A program made the position numbers and the translations under genes. A DNA stretch of 33,825 nt from Actinomyces sp. oral taxon 448 str. F0400. Its GTDB lineage: Bacteria; Actinomycetota; Actinomycetes; Actinomycetales; Actinomycetaceae. The stretch covers positions 183,942-217,766 of the forward strand of contig NZ_GL985606.1 in assembly GCF_000220835.1 (NCBI RefSeq), written 5' to 3'. The notes under the pieces are model-generated. The model made no database searches and was not told where the DNA came from. It saw only the letters and a program-made list of their open reading frames with translations. Shown piece by piece: positions 7,475-21,904 of this stretch (position 1 is its first letter; every line of letters starts with the position of its first letter).

Positions 7475-8911
7475 TCAGCCGTCATGCCCCATGACGAGCG
7501 CGGGCTCGCCCGGCGCCTCCACCTCCGCCCGGGGCGCCGGGTCGAGGCGCAGACGCACCCGGATGCGCCGCCACCCGCCTCCGACGGCGTCGTACTCCAG
7601 GTGCCGGTTGTCCAGGACGATGCGCTCGGTGCGCGCGTGAACGAGCCAGGGGTGGCGGCGCCGCATCCCGATGAGGTCCTGGTGCCACCGGTAGAGCCAC
7701 CCGCCGAGCGGTGAGAGATCCGCCGGGGTCGAAGGCAGCTCGGGACGCACCTGATCGTCGCCGCCGACCCGCTCGGTCTTCACTCCGCGGAACGCCTGCT
7801 CGTCACCGTAGTAGATGGCGGGGACCCCGCCGACCGTCAACAGGATCGTGGCCGCGAGCGCGGCCTTGGCGTCGCCGACCCTGCTGGCGATGCGAGTGAC
7901 ATCGTGGTTGCCGATGAAGGTCAAGGGCGTGAAGGAGTCGAGGAAGCCGTTGTGGCGGTTCAGGCACCAATCGAGCTCGAAGAAGTTCTCATCGAGCAGC
8001 GATCCCCAGACGGCCTTCCACAGCTCGTACTGGGTGAGCGAATCCATGGTGGAGCGTTCGATGATGCCGGCGTAGTCCCCGTGGATAACCTCCCCGAGGA
8101 ACCAGGCGTCGGGATACTCGCTGCGCACGCGCGGCAGAACCCGCGCCCAGAAAGCGGGCGGGACGGCGTAGGCCGCATCAAGCCTCCAGGCGGAGGCGCC
8201 CCGCTCCAGCCAGTGGGTGAGCACGGAGACGGCGAGGTCGGCGACCTCGTCACTGTCGTGGTTGAGCACCGCGAGCCCGTCGTGCCCTTCGAAAACGGCA
8301 TACCCGGGCACGGACCCGGTAGCCTGCGCGGCCCCGCCGGCTCCAGCAGCACCGGTCGCATCGTCGAAGTGGAACAGGCGCCGCTCGCGTCCTCCGGCGG
8401 CGGCGGCCCGGAACAGCGGGTGCTCGGTGCCGACGTGGTTGAGGACGCCGTCGAGCATGAGCGCCACGCCGCGGTCACGGCAGGCTTCGGCGAGGCGGTC
8501 GAAGGCCGTGTCGTCGCCGAGCCGGGGGTCGATGCGGAAGTGGTCAATGGTGTCGTACCCGTGGGTGCTCGAGGCGAAGACGGGTCCGAGTGCCAGGCCG
8601 TTGGCGCCCAGCTCGACCAGGTAGTCGAGCCAGTCGGCGAGGCGGTCGAGGCAGGGGTCGGCGCTGGCGGTTGCCGGAGCCGGGTCGGCCGCGGGAGTCC
8701 GGGCCTGCGCAGCGGCGTGGTCGAGCGGTGCGGTCGTTGGAGTCGGTGCGGGCGCCCGGCTCGCCGGCGCCGGGGACTGCGTCCGCCCCGTCTGCTCCAC
8801 CGGCCGGATCGGCGCTCCGGTCGCCCCCAGGGGGTAGACGTGCCACCAGATGCTGTGCTCCACCCAGGTCGGAAGAGCTCCATCCGCTATTCCACTAATC
8901 TCACTAGTCAT
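7475..8911 (-). CDS. GH13 alpha-amylase-family glycoside hydrolase
   Basis: A 478-residue GH13 (beta/alpha)8-barrel enzyme acting on alpha-glucosidic bonds, with no signal peptide, hence cytoplasmic. The four conserved GH13 regions are present: region I LMLDGVLNHVG, region II SAWRLDAAY with the nucleophile Asp245, region III WFLGEVIHGD with the acid/base Glu274, and region IV TFIGNHDVT with Asp337. An early WWHVYPLGA motif is typical for the subfamily of maltodextrin- or trehalose-related enzymes. A low-complexity Ala/Pro/Thr insert lies at residues ~45-85 between the first strand and CLDRLADWLDYLVELGANGL. The exact substrate cannot be told; alpha-glucan or maltodextrin hydrolysis is the safest reading. 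The start codon abuts a perfect inverted repeat shared with the divergent tetR gene, so the pair is probably co-regulated. Confidence 0.92.
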   Translation of the reverse strand: MTSEISGIADGALPTWVEHSIWWHVYPLGATGAPIRPVEQTGRTQSPAPASRAPAPTPTTAPLDHAAAQARTPAADPAPATASADPCLDRLADWLDYLVELGANGLALGPVFASSTHGYDTIDHFRIDPRLGDDTAFDRLAEACRDRGVALMLDGVLNHVGTEHPLFRAAAAGGRERRLFHFDDATGAAGAGGAAQATGSVPGYAVFEGHDGLAVLNHDSDEVADLAVSVLTHWLERGASAWRLDAAYAVPPAFWARVLPRVRSEYPDAWFLGEVIHGDYAGIIERSTMDSLTQYELWKAVWGSLLDENFFELDWCLNRHNGFLDSFTPLTFIGNHDVTRIASRVGDAKAALAATILLTVGGVPAIYYGDEQAFRGVKTERVGGDDQVRPELPSTPADLSPLGGWLYRWHQDLIGMRRRHPWLVHARTERIVLDNRHLEYDAVGGGWRRIRVRLRLDPAPRAEVEAPGEPALVMGHDG

Positions 8912-11906: not shown

Positions 11907-13315
11907 ATGAGTCCTCAGCCATCCATCCTCGCTAACCCGCTGACCAACCGCGGCACCGCCTTCACCCATGAGCAGCGCCGCGAGCTCGGCCTCATCGGCC
12001 GCTTCCCCTCCGTCGTCGAGACCCTTGACCAGCAAGCAGGCGGCGCGCACCTACCGCCAGCTGTGCGACTTCGGGTGGGACATGGACAAGTACGTCTTCC
12101 TCGACCAGCTCCACGATCGCAACGAGACCCTCTACTACCGGGTCCTGACCGGCCACCTCGCCGAGCTGCTGCCCGTCGTCTACGACCCCACCGTGGGCGA
12201 GGCCATCAAGCTCTGGAGCCGGGAGTACCGCCGCTCGCGCGCCGTCTACCTGTCGGTGGACCGCATCGAGGATGTGCGTCCCTCCCTGGAGGGCCTGGGT
12301 CTGGGGCCCGATGACGTCGACCTGCTCGTGGTCTCCGACGCCGAGGAGATCCTGGGCAACCGGCATGCACGGGTGCGCGGTCAGCGCTACGACGCCCTCG
12401 TCGAGGAGTACCTGTCGGCGACCGCCGAACTCTTCCCCCGCGCGCTGCTCCACTTCGAGGACTTCGGGCCGTCCAACGCCCGCCGCATCCTGCAGGCCAA
12501 CCGGGAGAAGTACGGCATCTTCAACGATCTTCAATGACGACATGCAGGGCACCGGTATGGCCGACCAGATCCACGCCGGCATGGTCCGCGACGGGCTGAG
12601 CCCCGAGGAAGCGCGCTCCCGCATCTGGCTCATCGACCGGGCGGGCCTGGTCACCGACGACATGGAGGGCCTGCCCGACTACCAGCAGGCCTACGCGCGG
12701 CCGGTCTCCGAGGTGGCGAACTGGACGCGCGAGCACGGAGCCGTCGGCCTGTTCGAGACGGTGCGCCGGGCGCGCCCGACGATTCTCATCGGCACCTCCA
12801 GCGACCACGGCGCCTTCGTCCGGCGGATCGTCGAGGCGATGAGCGAGGGCGTCGAGCGGCCCATCGTCCTGCCGCTGTCCAACCCGACCGAGCGGATCGA
12901 GGCCATGCCGGCTGACGTCATCGCCTGGTCGAAGGGCCGAGCGCTGGTGGCCACGGGCATCCCGATCAGCCCCTTCGACTACGACGGCACTCGGTTCATC
13001 ATCGGGCAGGGCAATAACTCGCTGCTGTACCCGGGCCTGGGACTCGGCGTCATCGTCTCCGGTGCGAGCCGGGTCACCGATGGGATGCTGCTCGCCGCGG
13101 CTCGAGCGGTCGCGGACCAGGCGGACCCGACGGCGCCCGGCGCGGCCCTGCTGCCCCCGGTGGAGAACCTGCGCGCCTCCTCGGCGACGGTCGCCGTCGC
13201 GGTCGCCCGCCAGGCGCAGGCCGACGGCGTGGCGACGGCCGACTACGACAACCTCATCCAGGCGGTGCAGGACGCCATGTGGGAGCCCGCCTACCCCGAG
13301 GTCGACGAGGCCTGA
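11907..13315 (+). pseudogene. NAD-type malic enzyme, broken by two tandem duplications and two deletions
   Basis: The sequence follows an MaeA/SfcA-type malic enzyme (oxidative decarboxylation of malate to pyruvate) through three frames. Frame 1 from ATG 11907 gives ILANPLTNRGTAFTHEQRRE to ETLDQQ. A 4-base direct repeat (AGCAAGCA, 12031-12038) then shifts the frame. Frame 2 gives AARTYRQL, DRNETLYYRVLTGHLAELLP, PTVGEAIKLWSREYRR and VVSDAEEILG. Here about 50 residues are missing in frame, including the 'GLGDQGxGGMGIPxGKL' segment with the catalytic Lys; the join falls on CTGGGC. NRHARVRGQRYDAL, HFEDFGPSNARRIL and KYGIFND follow. A 10-base near-exact duplication (12517-12536) shifts the frame again to NDDMQGTG. 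A second in-frame deletion then removes the Rossmann entry before MADQIHAGMVRDGLSPEEAR. The rest, to PAYPEVDEA, is intact. No active enzyme is possible. Confidence 0.9.
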
Positions 13316-13384: not shown

Positions 13385-14140
13385 ATGACCATCCGCGGCA
13401 TCGACCACGTCGGGGTCACCGTGTCCAGCATCGAACAGGCCACAGAGTTCTTCGTGCGGGCCCTCGGCGCCCAGGTCCTCTACGACACCCTTCCCCGCGA
13501 GGACGGGTCCCGCGGCGGTGAGGCAACGGATCAGCGGCTCGGCGTCCCCGGCGGCACCGACGAGATCGCCATCCGTATGCTGCGGCTGCCCTGCGGCCCG
13601 GGCCTGGAGCTCTTCGAGTTCACCGGGCCGCGTCAGCGGGACGCCGCGATCCCGAGTGACATCGAGTGGCAGCACGTGGCCGTCTACGCCGACGACCTCG
13701 ACGCCGCCGCCGCGCAGGTCGTGGAGGCCGGAGGCTCCCTCTTAGCCGAGCCACGGCCACTGCCCTCGGTGGAGGCCGGCGAGCGCAACCGCTTCGTCTA
13801 CGCGCGCACGCCGTGGGGCAGCACGCTGGAGATCATCAGCTACCCGGACGAGCAGCCCTACAACGCGGGACACGGAGCTGCGCCGCTGGCGGCCCTGAGC
13901 CGTCCTTGGGTAGGGCGACCCGATGGGATCCGGATGTCCGATCTCAAGGTCAGGATGTCCCGATCTCGGCGGCGAAGGGACGGACACGGCAACGGGGTGA
14001 CAACGCCGTGCGTCGGGACCCTGCACTCCGCCCGGACCGCTCGAGTGGTCACCATACGAAGAGCCCGACCATCCCCGCTGAGAGCAGCGAGACGAGGACG
14101 CCCGAGAGCATCATCCGCCACACGTTGCGCGCCACGATGA
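13385..14140 (+). CDS. VOC-superfamily (glyoxalase/bleomycin-resistance fold) protein with anomalous C-terminal tail
   Basis: The first ~160 residues form a VOC protein. The start ATG 13385 follows AGGAG. Two beta-alpha-beta-beta-beta halves each contribute metal ligands: His8 in IDHVGVTV, Glu78 in LELFEFTGP, His97 in WQHVAVYADD, and Glu149 in GSTLEIISYP. The residues between resemble lactoylglutathione-lyase-like members with unknown substrates. After YPDEQPYNAG the frame continues for about 90 residues of Arg/Ser-rich sequence without fold character and runs 92 bases into the convergent nupC gene. A natural stop was probably lost by a frameshift or point change around 13865-13900, or the tail is a neutral read-through. 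The functional domain itself appears intact. Confidence 0.75.
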   Translation: MTIRGIDHVGVTVSSIEQATEFFVRALGAQVLYDTLPREDGSRGGEATDQRLGVPGGTDEIAIRMLRLPCGPGLELFEFTGPRQRDAAIPSDIEWQHVAVYADDLDAAAAQVVEAGGSLLAEPRPLPSVEAGERNRFVYARTPWGSTLEIISYPDEQPYNAGHGAAPLAALSRPWVGRPDGIRMSDLKVRMSRSRRRRDGHGNGVTTPCVGTLHSARTARVVTIRRARPSPLRAARRGRPRASSATRCAPR

Positions 14141-15352
14141 GATTCCGCTCCTCGTCCACCAGCCCCTTGAAGCATCCGACGACCATTCCTGCAGTCGAGA
14201 AGTTGGCGAAGGAGGTGAGGAAGACCGTGAGAACGGCCTGGTAGTGGTCGGCGAGCCCACCGATAGAGCTCGTAACCTGACCCATGACGACGAACTCGTT
14301 CGTGACGAGCTTGAGCCCCATGAGCTGGGACATATCGTAGGCCGTGGACGGCTCGAGCCCGAGGAGCCAGGCGAGCGGGAAGAGGGCCACTCCGAGGATG
14401 GCCTCGAGGCTGAGCCCCGGGGAGACGAGCGCGAGGAGTCGGTCGATGAGCGCGGCCAGTGCGACGAAGGCGATGACGTTGGCCAGGACGATGAGGATGA
14501 CCTTGCCGGCCTCCAGCACCGAGTCACCCAGGAACGAGAAGAAGGGCTCGCGCTCGGGAGCATCGGGACGCCGCGTGACGAGCCGACGGCGCAGGGGGAG
14601 AGCCTCGTACCGGGCGACGGCCTCGGCATCGACCTCGTGACCGCCGCCGTCCGCCCCTCCGACGGTCACGATCGTGTCCTCCTCCTCGCTCACCGGGACG
14701 GGGTAGAGGATGCTCGCCACCAGGAGGGCGTTGATGCAGTTGAGCGGGATCGCGGTGAGGACGAACTCACCGGGAACGAGCTGGACGTAAGCGCCCACGA
14801 GCGCCGCTGACACGCAGCTCATGCTCATGATCGCGACGGTTGCGTTCCTCCGCGCACTGATCGCCTGGAGCTGGGCCTTGGAGATGGCGAGCGCCTCGGT
14901 GTTCCCGAGGAACATCATCTCGACCGCGAAGAACGACTCGAAGCGGGGTTGCCTGGTCACGGCGCTCAGTCCGCGTCCGACCCACTTGATGATCCACGGC
15001 ATGAGACCGATGTAGCTGAGAATGTCGAACAGCGGCACGATGAGGAGGATCGGGAGCAGCGCACTCGTCACGAAGTTGACAGGTTCGGGATCCACCCCCG
15101 TTGCACCGACCCAGTTCCAAAGGCGAAGCTCACGCCCTGGAAGGCCGTGTCGACGAGCCAGCGGAATCCCTGGGCCGCGGCTCTCACCGCGGCCCTACCG
15201 GCGGTGAAGCTGGTGAGGAGCCACGCGATGATGAGGCTGGTCATGACCATGAGCGCGACGGGGCGCCAGTGGATCCGGTGCCGGTCGGAGGAAAAGAGCC
15301 AGGCGAGACTGATGAAGACGAGGATGCCGACGGCATCGATGACGACGTACAT
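14049..15352 (-). pseudogene. nupC: NupC-type concentrative nucleoside transporter, frameshifted near its 5' third
   Basis: A CNT-family nucleoside/cation symporter of the membrane. From ATG 15352, with an excellent AAGGAGGT ribosome site, the first part reads MYVVIDAVGILVFISLAWLF, then HIHW-like HRIHWRPVALMVM and FRWLVDTAFQGVSFAFG. Then the frame breaks. The continuation GVDPEPVNFVTSALLPILLI is in another frame from about 15110. Restoring one A in GGAACTGG (15111-15120, giving GGAAACTGG) would produce FGNWVGATGVDPEPVNFVTS, the expected loop. Downstream motifs are intact: FFAVEMMFLGNTEALAISKAQ, SMSCVSAALVGAYV, FFSFLGDSVLEAGK, NEFVVMGQV and TSFANFSTAGMVVGCFKG. The gene is therefore a one-base-deletion pseudogene or carries a sequencing error. 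A protein starting inside the second frame would lack the first helices. It is the last gene of the nucleoside cluster. Confidence 0.88.
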
Positions 15353-15452
15353 GGTGACGGACCTCCTTGTGCGTGGGGGATGAGGGGAGCGAGTGAAGGA
15401 ACCGGGAGCGACCGGGCGGCGGGCGAGCGGCTCCGGACAGCGCACTGCCCCG

Positions 15453-15478
15453 GGTCCCCGCTCACTGACGCGGGGACC
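15453..15478 (-). terminator. Hairpin in the leader between the isochorismatase gene and nupC
   Basis: Arms GGTCCCCGC and GCGGGGACC are exact complements with an 8-base loop. It lies about 100 bases upstream of the nupC start on the same strand, together with the stronger hairpin at 15511-15541. It could act as a second terminator or an attenuator. Confidence 0.4.
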
Positions 15479-15510
15479 GACCTGTCAAGGAGCTGCTTCG
15501 CCCCTACTCA

Positions 15511-15541
15511 CGCGTGGCTCGTGCAGCGCACGAGCCACGCG
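15511..15541 (-). terminator. Perfect 14-bp hairpin directly after the isochorismatase stop
   Basis: Arms CGCGTGGCTCGTGC and GCACGAGCCACGCG are exact complements around an AGC loop. The hairpin begins one base after the stop codon at 15543-15545. It probably limits read-through into nupC or protects the upstream mRNA end. Confidence 0.7.
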
Positions 15542-15542
15542 C

Positions 15543-16277
15543 TCACCGCTGCCGGGACTCCCAGCTCTCGATGATCTCCTGGCTGGTGAGAACCCGACCG
15601 ATGCCCCTGCGGACGGTCTGGAGGGCCGAGTTGTGCGCCCACGGGTTGTCACTCGCGCACAGGTCGGATCCCATGACGACGTGGTACCCCCGGTCGAAGG
15701 CGGCACGGGCCGTGGCCTCGCAGCAGAAGTTCGTCAGGGTGCCGGCGATGATGACGGTGTCTCGCCGCAAGGCCCTCAACCGGTAGTCGAGGTCCGTCTG
15801 CCAGAACGCGTCGTAGGTGTGCTTGGTACCGATGAGGACGTCTCCGTCCTCCCAGAGCTCCGGGATGATCTCCAGTCCCTCGGCGTCCTCAGCGAGGTTG
15901 CCCTCGGCGATCGGCTTCGTCATCTTGAGGGCGTCGGTCGGAGAGGGGTCGAGGAACTGGGCCGACGTGAAGACCACGGGGATCCCGAGCGCCCTTGCCG
16001 CGGTCGCCGTGCGCGCGAGGGTCGGCACCATCCGCTCGGCCTGCGGCACCCACTGGGGACTGGTTTGCCTCACGAACCCGACCTGCATGTCGACGATGAC
16101 GAGCGCGCTGGCCTCGGCGAGCACGTCGAAGGCGTCGGACCTGGCGAGCTCGTAGTCGGCCATGGCGGCGAGCACTGAGGCGCGCTCAGAGCTCGGCCCG
16201 TCCTCGATGAGGTCCTCCGCGGAGAGGTTGTTGACCTTGAGGTACCACTCGAGCGTGGCGTCGTCCGTGTACTGCAT
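15543..16277 (-). CDS. Isochorismatase-family cysteine hydrolase (amidohydrolase type)
   Basis: A 244-residue cytosolic hydrolase of the isochorismatase superfamily, whose members use a Cys-Asp-Lys triad on amide, carbamoyl or vinyl-ether bonds. The triad is visible: Asp63 in ALVIVDMQVGFV, Lys152 in LIGTKHTYDAF, and Cys185 in AGTLTNFCCEATARAAFDRG. The N-terminal ~55 residues (MQYTDDATLEWYLKVNN) are an extra helical lead. The start at 16277 has an AAAGGAAC ribosome site. Isochorismatase-like enzymes in base catabolism include the ureidoacrylate hydrolase RutB and N-carbamoyl hydrolases. Its place between a DUF1989 gene and a nucleoside transporter suggests hydrolysis of a product of nucleobase breakdown, but the substrate is unknown. 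It lies 26 bases downstream of the DUF1989 gene, same strand. Confidence 0.9.
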   Translation of the reverse strand: MQYTDDATLEWYLKVNNLSAEDLIEDGPSSERASVLAAMADYELARSDAFDVLAEASALVIVDMQVGFVRQTSPQWVPQAERMVPTLARTATAARALGIPVVFTSAQFLDPSPTDALKMTKPIAEGNLAEDAEGLEIIPELWEDGDVLIGTKHTYDAFWQTDLDYRLRALRRDTVIIAGTLTNFCCEATARAAFDRGYHVVMGSDLCASDNPWAHNSALQTVRRGIGRVLTSQEIIESWESRQR

Positions 16278-16303
16278 CTCTGTTCCTTTCTCGTCCTGGA
16301 GTG

Positions 16304-17374
16304 CTACTGCTCGACGCGGGACACGGTGGTGACCCAGGTGAGGATGAGGTCCCGCAGCGACCGGCTCAGGTCGTCGCCGTACAGGTGCGGCTTCGCGAGT
16401 CGCCGCAGCTCCGCGGTGTCCTCATCGCTCAGCGCGATGGTGATCGACTGCTTGACGACCGGCGCGTGCGGGAAGGCGGGCACGTAGTCGGGATCGGCGC
16501 TCAACGGGGCCGGCTCGATGGTGTAGGGGTGCGGCAGGAGTCCGTACGGGTGGTCCCGCACGACGGACGCCTCGGCGGCCTCGCGGTCAGCCTCCGTGCC
16601 CTTGAGGACCTCGACGTGGAGGTCGCGCAGTTCGAAGTTGCTCGTCACCCCCATGTCGTCGCCGCAGACGTTGACCACGGCGAGGACGTCCATGAGCGCG
16701 TAGAACTCGATGTAGTCATCCGAGCCGGCGTAGTTCGGCTGGATGACCGGCTCGCCGGTCTCGTCCTGATCGACGTACATGAACAGGTTGAGCGACTCGT
16801 GGACGGCGTAGGGCGGGATGCCGAACTCGCGCTGCGCCTCGATCTGGATCTGCTGGCAGTTCGTGTGCTGGCGCTGCCCGAAGAGCCTCCAGTACAGGAG
16901 CGCAGAGCAGTATGGGACGAGGGTGTCCGTCTGACCCGTGTCGCGCAGGATCGCCAGCATCGGGCGCTCCCACGGCGCCCGGGACCACACCAGGTCCCCG
17001 TCTCGCGGGCTCTTCCCGTGGAGGCTCCGAGTCCGACCGAGGTGCATGTTCTCGTGCCAGTTGTCCAGGGCGTAGACGTTGAAGTCCGCGCACTGCCCGC
17101 CCTCGATCTGCTCGACCCGCAGGAGTGAGCCGGCACGGACCACGACTGCCTTGCCCGTCCCGGGCTTGATGGTGTGCTCCTCCAGGACGCGGCGCTCGGA
17201 CTGGGACGGCACCTCCCGACCGGGCCGGTGGTACACGGGGTGGGGGCCTGCGGGCGTCGCCTCCGCGATGGCGCGGGCGGCGAGCGCGTCCCGGGACGCC
17301 AGGTCGTGCGCCTGGACGTGCGCGTCGATGAGTGCGAGCTGCTGGTTGTTGACGGAGATGTCGAAGGTGTTCAT
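16304..17374 (-). CDS. DUF1989 (urea carboxylase-associated-like) family protein
   Basis: A 356-residue protein with a DUF1989 domain in its middle: YHRPGREVPSQSERRVLEEH, IKPGTGKAVVVRAGSLLRVE, QIEGGQCADFNVYALDNWHE, then GDLVWSRAPWERPMLAIL and HESLNLFMYVDQDETGE. DUF1989 proteins are often encoded beside urea carboxylase or aminomethyltransferase-like genes and are thought to act in nitrogen-compound metabolism; no mechanism is settled. The start at 17374 (MNTFDISVNNQQ) has GGAG 7 bases upstream; an in-frame start 36 bases earlier has no such site. The N-terminal ~55 residues lie outside the domain. The C-terminal stretch (ALSDEDTAELRRLAKPHLYG) is acidic and may form a helix. It sits in a colinear cluster with ribokinase upstream and isochorismatase downstream. 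Confidence 0.85.
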   Translation of the reverse strand: MNTFDISVNNQQLALIDAHVQAHDLASRDALAARAIAEATPAGPHPVYHRPGREVPSQSERRVLEEHTIKPGTGKAVVVRAGSLLRVEQIEGGQCADFNVYALDNWHENMHLGRTRSLHGKSPRDGDLVWSRAPWERPMLAILRDTGQTDTLVPYCSALLYWRLFGQRQHTNCQQIQIEAQREFGIPPYAVHESLNLFMYVDQDETGEPVIQPNYAGSDDYIEFYALMDVLAVVNVCGDDMGVTSNFELRDLHVEVLKGTEADREAAEASVVRDHPYGLLPHPYTIEPAPLSADPDYVPAFPHAPVVKQSITIALSDEDTAELRRLAKPHLYGDDLSRSLRDLILTWVTTVSRVEQ

Positions 17375-17460
17375 TGGTTGCTCCATTGCATGTGGTGGTT
17401 GTGTCGACATTGGCGCGGTGTGCGCTTCAGGGCCCTGGTCCGGGTCGGCGCTGGCGCCCT

Positions 17461-18369
17461 TCAGCTAAACCCGGCCTGGTTGGCCCCCAGCGTCGCGACC
17501 GCAGCTGCCCCGGCCGCGCAGCCGGACGTCACGGCGGCGACGAGACCGTCCCCGAGGGCGAGCCGGGCGGCGAGCGCTCCGGTGAAGGCGTCACCGGCCC
17601 CGGTGGTGTCGATGACGCGCTCGGGGGTCGGCGAGGGCACCGACTGGACGCCCGCCCCATCGACGACGACAGCGCCGTCGGGACCGAGCGTGATGACGAC
17701 GGCGTGGTGCGTGAGCGCGTGGAGGGCCGCGGCGCGTGCGCCGGGGTCGTCCGAGTCCGAGCCCGCACCGAGGCGACCCGCGAGCGACATCGCCTCGCCC
17801 TCGTTGAGCACGAGCGGGTCCGCGGCCAGGATGGTCCGGTCCGCGACGTCGACCACGGGCGCGAGGTTGAGGATGAAGCGCGTGTCGTGGTCGAGGCTCC
17901 ATCGTGCAGCCGCATCGACGGCTGACGGGTGGAGCTCGCCCTGGGCGAGGACCGCGTCGGCGCCCTCGAGACGCGCGAAGGCGGTTGCCAGTGCATCCGC
18001 CCCGACGTGTCGGTTGGCCCCGGCGATGACGACGATGGAGTTCTCCCCGTGACCGTCCACCGTGATGTGGGCTGTGCCCGACGGGACGCCCTCCGCCACC
18101 GCCATACGGCTCGTGTCGACGCCGGCGCGAGCCATCGCGGCGCGGGCCCGGTCCCCGGCGTCGTCGTCACCGACGGCACCGACGAAGACGGTCCGGACGG
18201 CACTCTCCCGGGCCGCCGCCAGCGCCTGGTTCGCGCCCTTGCCTCCGAGCCCCACGTGGCTGTCCACAGCGATCGTCGTCTCCCCCGGCGCCGGGTGGCG
18301 GTCGACGACCGCCACCCGGTCGAGGTTCAGCGAGCCGACCACCACCAGCATCGCTCCTGATTCTGGCAT
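17461..18369 (-). CDS. rbsK: Ribokinase-family (PfkB) sugar kinase
   Basis: Phosphorylates ribose (or a related sugar) to ribose 5-phosphate with ATP. The PfkB fold is clear: MLVVVGSLNLDRVAVVDRHP, then the substrate loop GLGGKGANQALAAAR, SGTAHITVDGHGENSIVVIA, and the C-terminal DTTGAGDAFTGALAARLA with the catalytic base Asp near residue 260. GGKGANQA and the N-D pattern near LNLD fit true ribokinases, which matches the neighbouring nucleoside hydrolase that would release ribose. The 302-residue length is normal. The start is either 18369 or 18351 (MLVVVGS); an AGGAG lies only two bases before the second, so 18369 is kept. It follows the nucleoside hydrolase by 41 bases. Confidence 0.9.
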   Translation of the reverse strand: MPESGAMLVVVGSLNLDRVAVVDRHPAPGETTIAVDSHVGLGGKGANQALAAARESAVRTVFVGAVGDDDAGDRARAAMARAGVDTSRMAVAEGVPSGTAHITVDGHGENSIVVIAGANRHVGADALATAFARLEGADAVLAQGELHPSAVDAAARWSLDHDTRFILNLAPVVDVADRTILAADPLVLNEGEAMSLAGRLGAGSDSDDPGARAAALHALTHHAVVITLGPDGAVVVDGAGVQSVPSPTPERVIDTTGAGDAFTGALAARLALGDGLVAAVTSGCAAGAAAVATLGANQAGFS

Positions 18370-18410
18370 CGTGACATCACCCGATCTCGTGATCGCTCAG
18401 CGCCGAGGCC

Positions 18411-19369
18411 TCAGCGGTACATCGCCAGCGTATCGGTGAGCAGGTCGAAGAAACCGTCGACGTCCATGTCGACCGCGACGTCGCAGTTGGGCTCGGCTCC
18501 GCGGATGATGCCCTCCTCGCCGTAGATCCCCTTGCCCTCGTGCCCGACGTAGCGGTAGTCGCAGACGGTCATGCCGCGGGTGAGGGTTCCGTTCAGCTCG
18601 ATCTGCACGTTCATCGGCTGCATAGTGAACAGCTCGGGCTTGATGAAGATCGCCGCGGCGAGCGGGTCGTGGATCGAGGCGCCCTCCAGCCCGTAAACCT
18701 TGTGGAGGGACGAGCGGTAGAACTCGACCAGGTCGGCGACAGTGCGGGCGAAGGGGGTGCCGATCGCGCGGATCCTGTCGAGCCGCTCCACGGTGGCGGA
18801 GGCCATCTGGGTCACGTTGAGCCCGAACATCTTGAGCGGAACGCCAGACCGGAACACGACGTCAGCCGCCTCGGGGTCGACGTAGATGTTGAACTCAGCG
18901 GCCGCCGTCGAGCCGCCGTAGGTCATGGACCCGCCCATGAGCGAGATGCCCTTGATCCGCTCAGTGAGGGTCGGGTCCTTGATCAGGGCCGCCGCGATGT
19001 TCGTCAACGGCCCGGTGGGGATGAGCCAGAGGTCGTCGTACTGTGGCTCGCCTCGATGATGAAGTCGACGGCGTGGAGCGGCGAGAGCGGCACCGTCGGG
19101 TCCGGGAGGTCGACGCCGTCGAGGCCGCTCTGCCCGTGGATCTCGGGCGCGTAGCGAGGGAGGTTGACGAGCGGGCGCGGGAGGCCCTTCGCGATGGGCA
19201 GGTCGGTGAGACCGGCGAGCTCGACCGCCTTACGGGCGTTGATGGTGGTCTTCTCGAGCGACTGGTTGCCGCTGACGGTCGTGAAGCCCACGACGTCGAG
19301 GTGCTTGGCCGCCAGGAAGATCGTCAGCATGTCGTCATGACCGGGGTCACCGTCGAGCAGGTAGTGCAT
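18411..19369 (-). pseudogene. Inosine-uridine-type nucleoside hydrolase, interrupted by a frameshift
   Basis: Cleaves the N-glycosidic bond of ribonucleosides to free base and ribose. The first part, from ATG 19369 with AAAGGAGC upstream, reads MHYLLDGDPGHDDMLTIFLA, the calcium-site Asp cluster of nucleoside hydrolases (normally DxDPGxDD). VVGFTTVSGNQSLEKTTINA, then IHGQSGLDGVDLP and VDFIIEASH follow. At 19041-19043 the frame breaks and continues one frame over as YDDLWLIPTGPLTNIAAALI, KGISLMGGSMTYGG, AEFNIYVDPEAADVVF and SIHDPLAAAIF, with the last calcium-site Asp. One missing base (for example an A before AGTAC) would join them into a ~318-residue enzyme of normal length. It is the first gene of the cluster and diverges from lacI. 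Confidence 0.88.
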
Positions 19370-19402
19370 GGCAAGAGCTCCTTTGTTCTCGTCGGCATTC
19401 GT

Positions 19403-19419
19403 ATGCCGTAAGACGGCAT
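19403..19419. promoter_or_regulatory. Predicted LacI operator between nucleoside hydrolase and lacI
   Basis: ATGCCGTAAGACGGCAT is a perfect inverted repeat of two 7-base arms around AAG, in the 67-base divergent interval. It lies 34 bases upstream of the nucleoside hydrolase start and 18 bases upstream of the first lacI start. Position and symmetry fit a LacI-family operator that controls the cluster and the regulator. Confidence 0.75.
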
Positions 19420-19436
19420 TACCAGGTTCATCGGTT

Positions 19437-20423
19437 ATGGTCAAGGGCGTGTCCGGAGTTCCGAGAAGACCCACAGGTGCTGATGTCGCACGTCTCGCCG
19501 GCGTGAACCAGGCATCCGTGTCCCGCGTGTTCGCGGGCAAGGCGAGCGGGCGCGTCTCCCCCGAGGTCGAGCAGCGCATCCGCCAGGCAGCGGCCCAGCT
19601 GCGGTACGAGCCTCACGTCTCCGGCCAGTTCCTGCGCTCAGGCCGTTCATCCGTCCTCGGGCTGGTCGTCACCGACTTCGAAAACCCGTTCTTCGGGGCC
19701 GTGAGCCGCGGCGCCCAGAGCGCCGCCGCCTCCCACGGGCACTCCCTGATGCTCATGGAGGCCGCCTACGAAGGGGACGCCTTCATTCCCTTCCGCGCCC
19801 TGGACGCCGGGCTGGTCAGCGGGCTCCTCCTCTACTCGATCTCGCCCCCGCCCGACACGGGCGACCGAGCGCCACGAGTCACCCTCATCGAGTCCCGCCT
19901 TCCCGGCTTCCGCTCGGCCGCCTTCAACGTGTCGGCGAGCTTCCGAGACCTGGCATCGGCGCTGGCCGTCAAGGCGCGGCGGGTCGCGTACGTCGACGCC
20001 GATCTGCAGCGGTGGGCCTTCCAGCACCGTCGGAGCGAGCTCTTCGCGGCGTTGGAGGAGAGCGCACCACGGACCGAGGTGCAGGTGATCGAGGCACCCC
20101 TGCGCATCGACGTCGCCGCTCGCACCATCGCTGGCGCCCTGGGGAGCGGTCCGGCTCCGGACGTGATCGTGTGCGCCGATGACGTGCTCACCGCTGGCGC
20201 CTACCACGCGCTGCCCGCCGTCGGCCTGCGCTCCGAGCACGACATCGACGTCTTCACCTTCGGTGGAACCGTGGTCGGTCACGCTCTGCTGCCGCAGCCC
20301 CGGGGCGTACGGGCCTCTGGCGCCTCGCTCGGCTCGGCCGCCATCGAGCTCCATCTCGATCAGAACCCCACGACCACCGAGGTTGACGTCCCGACCCAGG
20401 CGGTCCTCGACGGTCCTTGCTGA
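19437..20423 (+). CDS. LacI-family transcriptional regulator of the nucleoside cluster
   Basis: A 328-residue LacI/GalR-type regulator. The N-terminal helix-turn-helix reads PTGADVARLAGVNQASVSRV, followed by the hinge region RVSPEVEQRIRQAAAQLRYE. The periplasmic-binding-like effector domain starts SSVLGLVVTDFENPFFGAVS and includes PDVIVCADDVLTAGAYHALP and a short C-terminus. Two starts are possible: ATG 19437, or GTG 19449, which has TATGGT 7 bases upstream and would give a leaderless mRNA and a more typical N-terminus (MSGVPRRPTGADV). It is divergent from the nucleoside hydrolase with a perfect operator between them. The effector is probably a nucleoside, base or ribose, by context only. Confidence 0.93.
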   Translation: MVKGVSGVPRRPTGADVARLAGVNQASVSRVFAGKASGRVSPEVEQRIRQAAAQLRYEPHVSGQFLRSGRSSVLGLVVTDFENPFFGAVSRGAQSAAASHGHSLMLMEAAYEGDAFIPFRALDAGLVSGLLLYSISPPPDTGDRAPRVTLIESRLPGFRSAAFNVSASFRDLASALAVKARRVAYVDADLQRWAFQHRRSELFAALEESAPRTEVQVIEAPLRIDVAARTIAGALGSGPAPDVIVCADDVLTAGAYHALPAVGLRSEHDIDVFTFGGTVVGHALLPQPRGVRASGASLGSAAIELHLDQNPTTTEVDVPTQAVLDGPC

Positions 20424-20673: not shown

Positions 20674-21904
20674 TCAAGCGGCTGCGGGTAGGTGTGCTGA
20701 TGGTTGTGGATCGTAGAGGGCTCCATCCCGGATCATGGCGTGCAGGGTCAGGATGCGGCGGTGGGCCAGGGCGAGGACGGCCTGGTTGTGACGCTTTGCC
20801 TGATCTCGTTTGCGCTGGTAGTAGGCCCGGCTGACGGGGTCGGAGCGCAGGGAGGCGAAGGCGGACAGGAACACGGCGCGCGTGAGCCGCTTGTTGCCGG
20901 CGTGGGTGACATGCTCGCCGCGGATCGATGAGCCCGATCTCCTGGTCACCGGTGCCAGGCCGGGGTAGGAGACCAGGTGGGCGCCGGTGCCTGGAGGTCT
21001 TGCCCAGGGTCTCGGCCAGGAAGACGGCGGCGGCCGGGACCCCGATCCCGGGCATGGAGGTCAGGACCTGGTAAAGATGGAGGTCAGGACCTGGTAAAGA
21101 GGGTGGGCCTGCACCAGGGTCTCGACCTGGGCGGCGACATCGGCCCGCAGGGAGTGCAGAGCGATGAGCTGCCTGGCCAGGTGAGGCAGCACCGTTGCGG
21201 CGGCGTCGGTGCCGGCGACCACCACGGTCTGGCGTTCCAGGGTCGAGACGATCTGGGCGGCCCAGATGGCGTGACGCCTACACCCGTGCTTCGTGAGCCT
21301 GGCGTCAATCCTTGTCTTACCCGCGCGCTTCAGCTCGGCCGGGGTGGGCTAGGCGGCGATGACCTCCAGGACGGCGTCGTGCTCCAACCACGGCCCCACC
21401 ACCGCCTCCAGGGCGGGGTGGATCTGGGTGTACAGACCCCGGATCCGGTTAGCGGTCTGGTACCTGGCGGGCCAGGTCCAGGTCGAAACCAGTCAGCATG
21501 CTCAGTGCTGCGGCGTCCTCGTCCGAGGTGCTGATGGCGCACAGGGTGTGAGGCATGGTCCTGGCAGCGCTGGCGATGACGGCGGCGTCCTTCGCGTCGG
21601 TCTTGGCGCTGCCCGGTGTCAGGTCCGCGATGCGGCGCATCGACAGTCCCGGCAGGTAGCCCACGGTGATGCCCATGTCCTGGGCCACCACCACCGCCAG
21701 GGCCCCGATGGTGGCGGGCTGATCGACCACCACCAGCACCTGCCCCTTTGCCTGTAGGCGCTGGTAGACCTCGCGCAGCCGGTCCTCGTCGTTGGGCAGG
21801 GCCTTGTCGAGGGCCTTCCGCCCGTCTCGAATCAGGGCCGTGGCCCAGTGCTCGCTCTTACCGACGTCAATGCCGATGAAGACCTCGATGTCCTCGATAT
21901 CCAT
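20674..21904 (-). pseudogene. IS110-family transposase (DEDD N-domain plus Tnp_20 C-domain), multiply broken
   Basis: The start at 21904 gives MDIEDIEVFIGIDVGKSEHW with the first catalytic Asp, then VLVVVDQPATIGALAVVVAQ and SAKTDAKDAAVIASAARTMP, the DEDD RuvC-like domain. An extra base near 21461-21464 shifts the frame before TANRIRGLYTQIHPALEAV. A TAG stop follows at 21349-21351. A perfect 23-base tandem duplication (21054-21076 and 21077-21099) interrupts the segment that should read YQVLTSMPGIGV. Another shift near 20985 precedes GAHLVSYPGLAPVTRRSGSS, IRGEHVTHAGNKRLTRAVFL and SRAYYQRKRDQAKRHNQA, the C-terminal Transposase_20 domain with its Ser. The intact enzyme would be about 400 residues. 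This copy cannot make an active recombinase. Confidence 0.9.

Follow-up and report, generated by a model that had tools for sequence, protein, structure and literature searches.

Gene content of the cluster

The window, a 33,825-nucleotide stretch of Actinomyces sp. oral taxon 448 str. F0400 (contig NZ_GL985606.1, positions 183,942 to 217,766; genome G000, 2.83 Mb in 12 contigs), contains a cluster in which genes for a nucleoside hydrolase (NH), a PfkB-family kinase, a DUF1989 protein, an isochorismatase-type cysteine hydrolase (ICH), and the transporter NupC follow one another on the minus strand, with a LacI-family regulator gene divergently transcribed on the plus strand. These five genes and their divergent regulator were reported in a preliminary description of this DNA and are located as it stated by open reading frames (ORFs) and by Pfam and NCBIfam models, although NH and nupC are frame-split. 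The features are as follows; L055 and L145 are two related loci described below.

19368..20423, plus strand: LacI-family regulator (LacI 38.8 bits, Peripla_BP_1 36.4 bits), with homologues next to NH in L055 and L145
19394..19407: presumed operator GGCATACGAATGCC, a palindrome in the LacI-NH interval; a second palindrome, at 19403-19419, overlaps it
18411..19369, minus strand: RihA/UriH-type NH, with a frame break near 19040 and intact orthologues in L055 and L145
17461..18369, minus strand: PfkB-family kinase, ribokinase-like (226.8 bits, below the ribokinase TIGR02152 cut-off of 299.65)
16304..17410, minus strand: DUF1989 protein of 368 amino acids, containing Cys168/Cys185/Cys249, His182, and Asp252; both ends of the model have a strand-helix-helix element
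15543..16277, minus strand: ICH, 244 amino acids, the Pfam domain preceded by about 50 residues
15517..15535: perfect inverted repeat GCTCGTG/CACGAGC in the ICH-nupC interval, without a terminator call
14049..15352, minus strand: NupC-type nucleoside transporter, frame broken near 15095, with a presumed start at ATG 15352

The intergenic gaps from NH through the kinase and DUF1989 to ICH are 41, 50, and 26 bases, and nupC, if it starts at ATG 15352, lies about 190 bases past ICH, behind the perfect inverted repeat. The LacI gene probably starts downstream of its first ATG, near 19437, and pieces of an IS110-type transposase adjoin it (window 20674-21904). NH is spread over two ORF pieces in different frames (19004-19579 and 18411-19007, minus strand), as is nupC (15068-15445 and 14049-15095, minus strand), whose pieces score 249.8 and 56.1 bits against a TIGR00804 cut-off of 442. 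The adjacent malic-enzyme gene (window 11968-13315) is also in two frames (11968-12537 and 12272-13315), and the three splits reflect either several broken genes or small assembly errors. If real, the NH break is recent, because its larger piece differs from the L055 gene by a nonsynonymous distance (dN) of 0.024 at a synonymous distance (dS) of 0.70.

Conservation of the cluster in other genomes

Beyond the nucleoside hydrolase, kinase, and transporter, the preliminary description had tied the DUF1989 and ICH genes to nucleoside use, with co-conservation in related genomes set beforehand as the test of that tie. NH, LacI, DUF1989, and ICH occur together at three loci, in three genomes of two families and in two arrangements, and the link of DUF1989 and ICH to NH and LacI thus survived, now with a shared presumed operator at each locus. 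Membership of the kinase and NupC in the conserved unit is not supported, as neither was found at L055, a contig of 5,980 bases, or at L145. L055, from a Micropruina metagenome-assembled genome, has LacI, NH, DUF1989, and ICH (54%, 89-95%, 65-70%, and 67% identity to the window, respectively) together with no kinase in between; its DUF1989 gene, too, is split over two frames, and PfkB kinases are encoded in its genome away from the locus. L145 (genome G1347; 46%, 84-89%, 52%, and 69% identity in the same order) has intact NH and LacI genes back to back, then a MarR-type gene on the other strand, and then ICH before DUF1989, in reversed order; its 19.9 kb contain no kinase or NupC match at 1e-3.

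DUF1989 genes are scattered. Among 198 genomes of the Micropruina family, DUF1989 matches at 1e-15 are present in two, the L055 genome and G1347 (52% identity), and at 1e-3 only 2 of 213 genomes of the window's own family have a match, namely its own copy and a 27% relative. A sample of the class gave 1 match in 394 genomes at 1e-25, and samples of the order and phylum gave 52 of 297 and 38 of 396 at 1e-3, where the matches listed have 22-34% identity besides the window's own copy and four at 39-43%. A scan of viral contigs yielded no DUF1989, and the relatives returned by plasmid searches are all below 60% identity for both DUF1989 (247 records) and ICH (159 records).

The 14-base palindrome GGCATACGAATGCC recurs without a change in the LacI-NH interval of all three loci. 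Whole-genome scans allowing up to one mismatch locate it at a single place in each of G000 and G1347 and at three places in G1198, of which two are at the locus and the third is within an apparent coding stretch; the reversed sequence, as a control at the same tolerance, gave no match in any of the three genomes. L145 has an additional two-mismatch copy at 8776-8789, which likely lies upstream of ICH-DUF1989, because the ICH start that aligns with its orthologues is at 8832, the longest frame running from 8772. At up to three mismatches, the 19.9 kb of L145 contain eight matches versus 1.4 expected (palindromes being counted on both strands), and the window contains four versus 2.24 expected, not rarer than chance; the operator argument is based on the exact and one-mismatch scans. 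No copy was found before nupC in a pattern scan of the window. Because GGCATACGAATGCC places are scarce genome-wide, L145 has the two-mismatch copy, and nupC has none, the regulator, which presumably binds GGCATACGAATGCC, appears to be a dedicated, local one that in L145 joins both halves of the unit. Also in L145, two palindromes at 8737-8770, between the MarR-type gene and ICH, are perhaps a MarR site.

A nucleoside operon could have come to lie beside two unrelated hydrolases by chance: neither nupC nor the kinase was found at L055 or L145, an IS110 remnant adjoins the cluster, and the wider family shows no enrichment of ICH near DUF1989 (see below). However, the same four genes recur in three genomes, in two arrangements and with one palindrome, and this co-conservation together with the genome scans for GGCATACGAATGCC largely rejects a chance neighborhood, to which we give very little weight.

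The nucleoside hydrolase

Both NH pieces in the window exceed the IU_nuc_hydro (PF01156) gathering cut-off of 34.2 bits (99.1 and 177.9 bits), and the intact L145 NH falls below the equivalog cut-offs for UriH (301.5 against 450) and RihA (296 against 433). As a query, the L145 protein has matches at 1e-60 in 59 of the 213 genomes of the window's family, and because those listed outside the window's cluster reach at most 51% identity, the cluster NH is a distinct NH within that family. A glutamate in the base pocket was dropped as a distinctive trait, since the same PEIHG stretch is present in other NHs. With dS between 0.51 and 1.02 over all cluster genes compared, dN is 0.02-0.10 for NH, 0.24-0.26 for ICH, and 0.23-0.46 for DUF1989; NH is thus under far stronger constraint than the other two, its dN being far lower at similar synonymous distance.

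Such unusual constraint, and the rarity and patchiness of DUF1989 (2 of 213 family genomes; 1 of 394 in the class sample), would also suit a cluster that removes damaged or toxic nucleosides, either an analogue or an oxidized nucleoside, and is not concerned with nitrogen gain. The LacI regulator and the kinase and transporter of the window suggest nutrient use instead, and a detoxifying role seems to us unlikely.

The DUF1989 and isochorismatase-type proteins

The DUF1989 protein belongs to its family (PF09347) both by score, with 122.7 bits against a gathering cut-off of 27, and by fold. The zinc-site residues Cys168, Cys185, and Cys249 are invariant in alignments of 14 and of 28 sequences, and they sit in stretches that align with Tdm, the trimethylamine N-oxide demethylase, in which the zinc ligands are three cysteines according to PMC12560246. 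The DUF1989 proteins of the three loci form one clade (support 100/100). At 22 residue columns and one gap column, all three depart from the consensus, taken as the residue present in at least 85% of 26 relatives; one clade change, Asp187 to Gln, is near the zinc site, two residues past Cys185. At both ends of the modelled protein a strand precedes helices, which recalls ribbon-helix-helix proteins; we do not claim that fold for them, as the sole RHH_1 match among ten pieces, in L055, is sub-threshold (15.4 versus 20.5 bits).

Neither CgdAB nor Tdm provides a ready assignment. Scores for UAAP1 and UAAP2, the CgdAB-type models, are far below their cut-offs (TIGR03425, 50.8 versus 205.95; TIGR03424, 45.5 versus 284.7), and the genome of the window has a single DUF1989 match and no pair, in a single-protein search at E 0.001 that a very distant paralogue could escape. 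The highest NCBIfam score is to Tdm (NF053776, 71.4 against a cut-off of 1100), from which the protein differs in that Pfam finds DUF1989 alone, without GcvT. To our knowledge few DUF1989 members have been assayed, and we know of none that opens a ring. A link of the family to urea-type nitrogen metabolism, as given in the preliminary description, is now better read as one to the carboxyguanidine deiminase CgdAB, on the basis of PMC11271267, and a deiminase role for the cluster protein fits as well as ring opening. A full-text search for DUF1989 returned three papers, PMC11271267, PMC8319176, and PMC12560246, and none of them treats nucleosides in its accessible sections.

ICH scores 139.9 bits against a PF00857 cut-off of 27, and the three orthologues share VDMQ or IDMQ, GTK or GGK before HTYDAF, and TN(F/V)CCE, motifs that we take to hold the Asp-Lys-Cys triad. 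It scores far below RutB (TIGR03614, 51.8 versus 377.95) and the biuret hydrolase BiuH (NF050097, 56.6 versus 370), and a guanylurea hydrolase model is absent among its NCBIfam matches. N-Carbamoylsarcosine amidohydrolase and nicotinamidases are among its matches to solved structures. Since some nucleoside hydrolases free nicotinamide from its riboside, the cluster could in principle serve nicotinamide riboside use with ICH as the nicotinamidase, but the match to the PncA-type model is poor (NF008623, 21.3 versus 174 bits) and DUF1989 would be left without a task, making this the least credible of the explanations considered.

Neighborhoods of DUF1989 in the wider family

A scan of named genomes with an alignment of five long forms gave 89 relatives, of which 80 loci were kept (L055-L134), L055 being the closest. 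The neighbor counts come from tblastn at 1e-15, for which most reference proteins were drawn from these loci themselves. Some contigs do not extend over the full flank and the 80 loci are related to one another, such that the counts are not independent events. The numbers of loci with each neighbor within 5 kb, with those beyond 5 kb in parentheses, are as follows.

Regulator and flavin proteins: GntR-FCD 60 (2), Flavin_Reduct 47 (0)
Receptor and transport proteins: Bmp/PnrA receptor (nucleoside-type) 43 (1), BPD_transp_2 14 (10)
Enzymes: RidA 12 (0), TRZ/ATZ amidohydrolase 9 (3), ICH 9 (13), amidase 8 (0), AtzD 7 (1), formamidase 4 (2), M20 carbamoylase 4 (0), NH 2 (0), adenine deaminase 1 (0), ribokinase 0 (0)

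With ICH counted, 30 of the 80 loci have at least one enzyme that acts in base, ureide, or triazine breakdown. The ICH counts within and beyond 5 kb do not bear out its position beside DUF1989 as a general feature of the family; in individual loci it does follow DUF1989, immediately in L052 and L073 and after about 0.9 kb in L132. Individual neighbors pass specific cut-offs, including an AtzD in L125 (cyanuric acid amidohydrolase, 417.2 versus 360), a formamidase in L076 (584.4 versus 406), and an M20 protein in L069 (an allantoate amidohydrolase model), and a biuret-hydrolase-like ICH near one relative remains below its cut-off (263.7 versus 370). The NH near DUF1989 in L063 was set aside, being only a 30% relative about 4 kb away. 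L125 and L126, both from Acidimicrobiia, have DUF1989 with genes for a cyanuric acid amidohydrolase, an AtzE-like amidase, a RidA-type protein, and a molybdenum hydroxylase, possibly an uncharacterized heterocycle route. An IS110-type transposase is near the DUF1989-ICH pair of L052 (6596-7420), and a riboswitch search had a group II intron domain as its sole match, in the same locus (13995-14128; RF02003, 86.1 bits).

Some of these neighborhoods bring to mind guanylurea breakdown. 5-Azacytidine opens to ribosylguanylurea, and guanylurea hydrolase yields carboxyguanidine directly. NH could then free guanylurea from a 5-azapyrimidine riboside or from ribosylguanylurea, with ICH as a guanylurea hydrolase forming carboxyguanidine, DUF1989 as a carboxyguanidine deiminase, and guanidine carboxylase bypassed. 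The proximity of AtzD, a biuret-hydrolase-like ICH, and formamidase to some DUF1989 relatives is consistent with such a route, as is the nearness of the two families in one pathway: PMC9800807 places guanylurea hydrolase, an isochorismatase-like protein, upstream of CgdAB, and PMC11271267 identifies CgdAB as DUF1989. The former nevertheless gives guanidine as the product, followed by guanidine carboxylase. The window's protein also misses the UAAP1 and UAAP2 cut-offs and has no partner in its genome, which contains no allophanate hydrolase above cut-off and no urease alpha match, and no guanidine riboswitch was found in the seven sources searched. We know of no natural abundance of 5-azapyrimidine ribosides or ribosylguanylurea in these habitats, and a guanylurea-type route is accordingly a doubtful one.

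A proposed route of nucleoside breakdown

We favor, with a probability of roughly 0.6, a dedicated LacI-controlled catabolic unit for one pyrimidine-like ribonucleoside, in which DUF1989 and ICH work on the product of NH. Underlying this are the gene content, its co-conservation, the conserved palindrome, the zinc-site residues, and the separate DUF1989 clade, all observed directly; the type of NH points to the pyrimidine-like substrate, and action on the released base and nitrogen release are presumed. Also in favor are the low dN of NH, its distinctness within the window's family, and the nucleoside-type receptors and the RidA, amidohydrolase, amidase, AtzD, formamidase, and M20 genes near DUF1989 in the wider family. 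LacI would bind GGCATACGAATGCC upstream of NH and be released by a substrate-derived inducer, and NH would cleave the nucleoside to ribose and base. DUF1989, a zinc-site protein taken to be a hydrolase, would attack the base at a ring amide or amidine, and the cysteine hydrolase ICH would cut the resulting carbamoyl or amide group to ammonia and CO2; this order, with DUF1989 first and ICH second, is tentative. In the strain of the window, the kinase would phosphorylate the ribose and NupC would take up the nucleoside.

A specific case of this scheme begins with dihydrouridine from tRNA, which NH would split, with DUF1989 opening dihydrouracil as an analogue of dihydropyrimidinase and ICH hydrolyzing N-carbamoyl-beta-alanine. 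The cluster has two hydrolase-type genes and no redox gene, and N-carbamoylsarcosine amidohydrolase is among the structural matches of ICH, both in keeping with it. However, no such route was seen in a literature listing on that topic, and a ring-opening DUF1989 would itself be a novelty to us, so this substrate is an improbable choice.

Several observations weigh against the favored scheme of a dedicated ribonucleoside unit. The lack of ICH enrichment near DUF1989 (9 of 80 loci within 5 kb versus 13 beyond) is the reason for placing it at 0.6 and not 0.65, and the frequent GntR-FCD and Flavin_Reduct neighbors (60 and 47 of 80) have no place in it, such that the chemistry of the family could perhaps not be simple hydrolysis. 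There are only three loci, whose DUF1989 proteins are one clade and may represent one evolutionary event, and two of its three members have long branches and are flagged by the tree tool as unsure in placement. In the window itself NH is not one intact ORF, and a promoter scan of 15300-19600 called no sigma-70-type site. The genome has no urease alpha match and no allophanate hydrolase above cut-off, so nitrogen would go unused if the route ended in urea or allophanate.

The boldest form of the proposal, which we offer as a conjecture with the odds somewhat against it, is a redox-free, purely hydrolytic breakdown of the base by a new ring-opening or deiminating metal hydrolase (the DUF1989 clade), a new isochorismatase-family amidohydrolase, and a dedicated NH. 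If true, it would give one DUF1989 branch a physiological task and add a further way of recycling nucleic-acid building blocks. With few genes, intact orthologues, and a single palindrome, the unit lends itself to testing.

Comparison with known systems

Literature listings on the pairing of nucleoside hydrolase with isochorismatase and on related topics, which leave most subscription papers outside their scope, show no matching pathway, and the cluster is best compared with systems that share some of its parts. The guanylurea/guanidine pathway (GuuH, guanidine carboxylase, CgdAB, and AtzF) likewise has ICH and DUF1989 superfamily members in one degradation pathway, but guanidine carboxylase stands between them there and here they are tied to NH; the window DUF1989 is also single and below the UAAP1/2 cut-offs, with no allophanate hydrolase above cut-off in its genome. 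Tdm shares the DUF1989 domain and the three zinc cysteines. In URC uracil catabolism a ribosylurea intermediate is broken down to urea, according to PMC7530994; the breakdown of a ribosylated ureide is a likeness, and the URC gene products, by description, are different.

The Rut pathway also uses an ICH-family hydrolase (RutB) in base breakdown, and the wider DUF1989 loci resemble it in their Flavin_Reduct (47 of 80) and RidA-type (12 of 80) neighbors, families to which RutF and RutC belong. The cluster differs in that its ICH is far under the RutB cut-off and no RutA-like gene is among its genes. Operons with RihA or UriH, ribokinase, and NupC share nucleoside cleavage, a sugar kinase, a transporter, and LacI control, and they end at ribose and free base; in contrast, the conserved partners here are two further hydrolases, and the kinase and transporter are not conserved. 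In the bacterial routes of base breakdown known to us, the first enzyme is a reductase, an oxidase, or a flavin monooxygenase, and a hydrolase-only unit behind NH would, if true, be a different solution to base breakdown.

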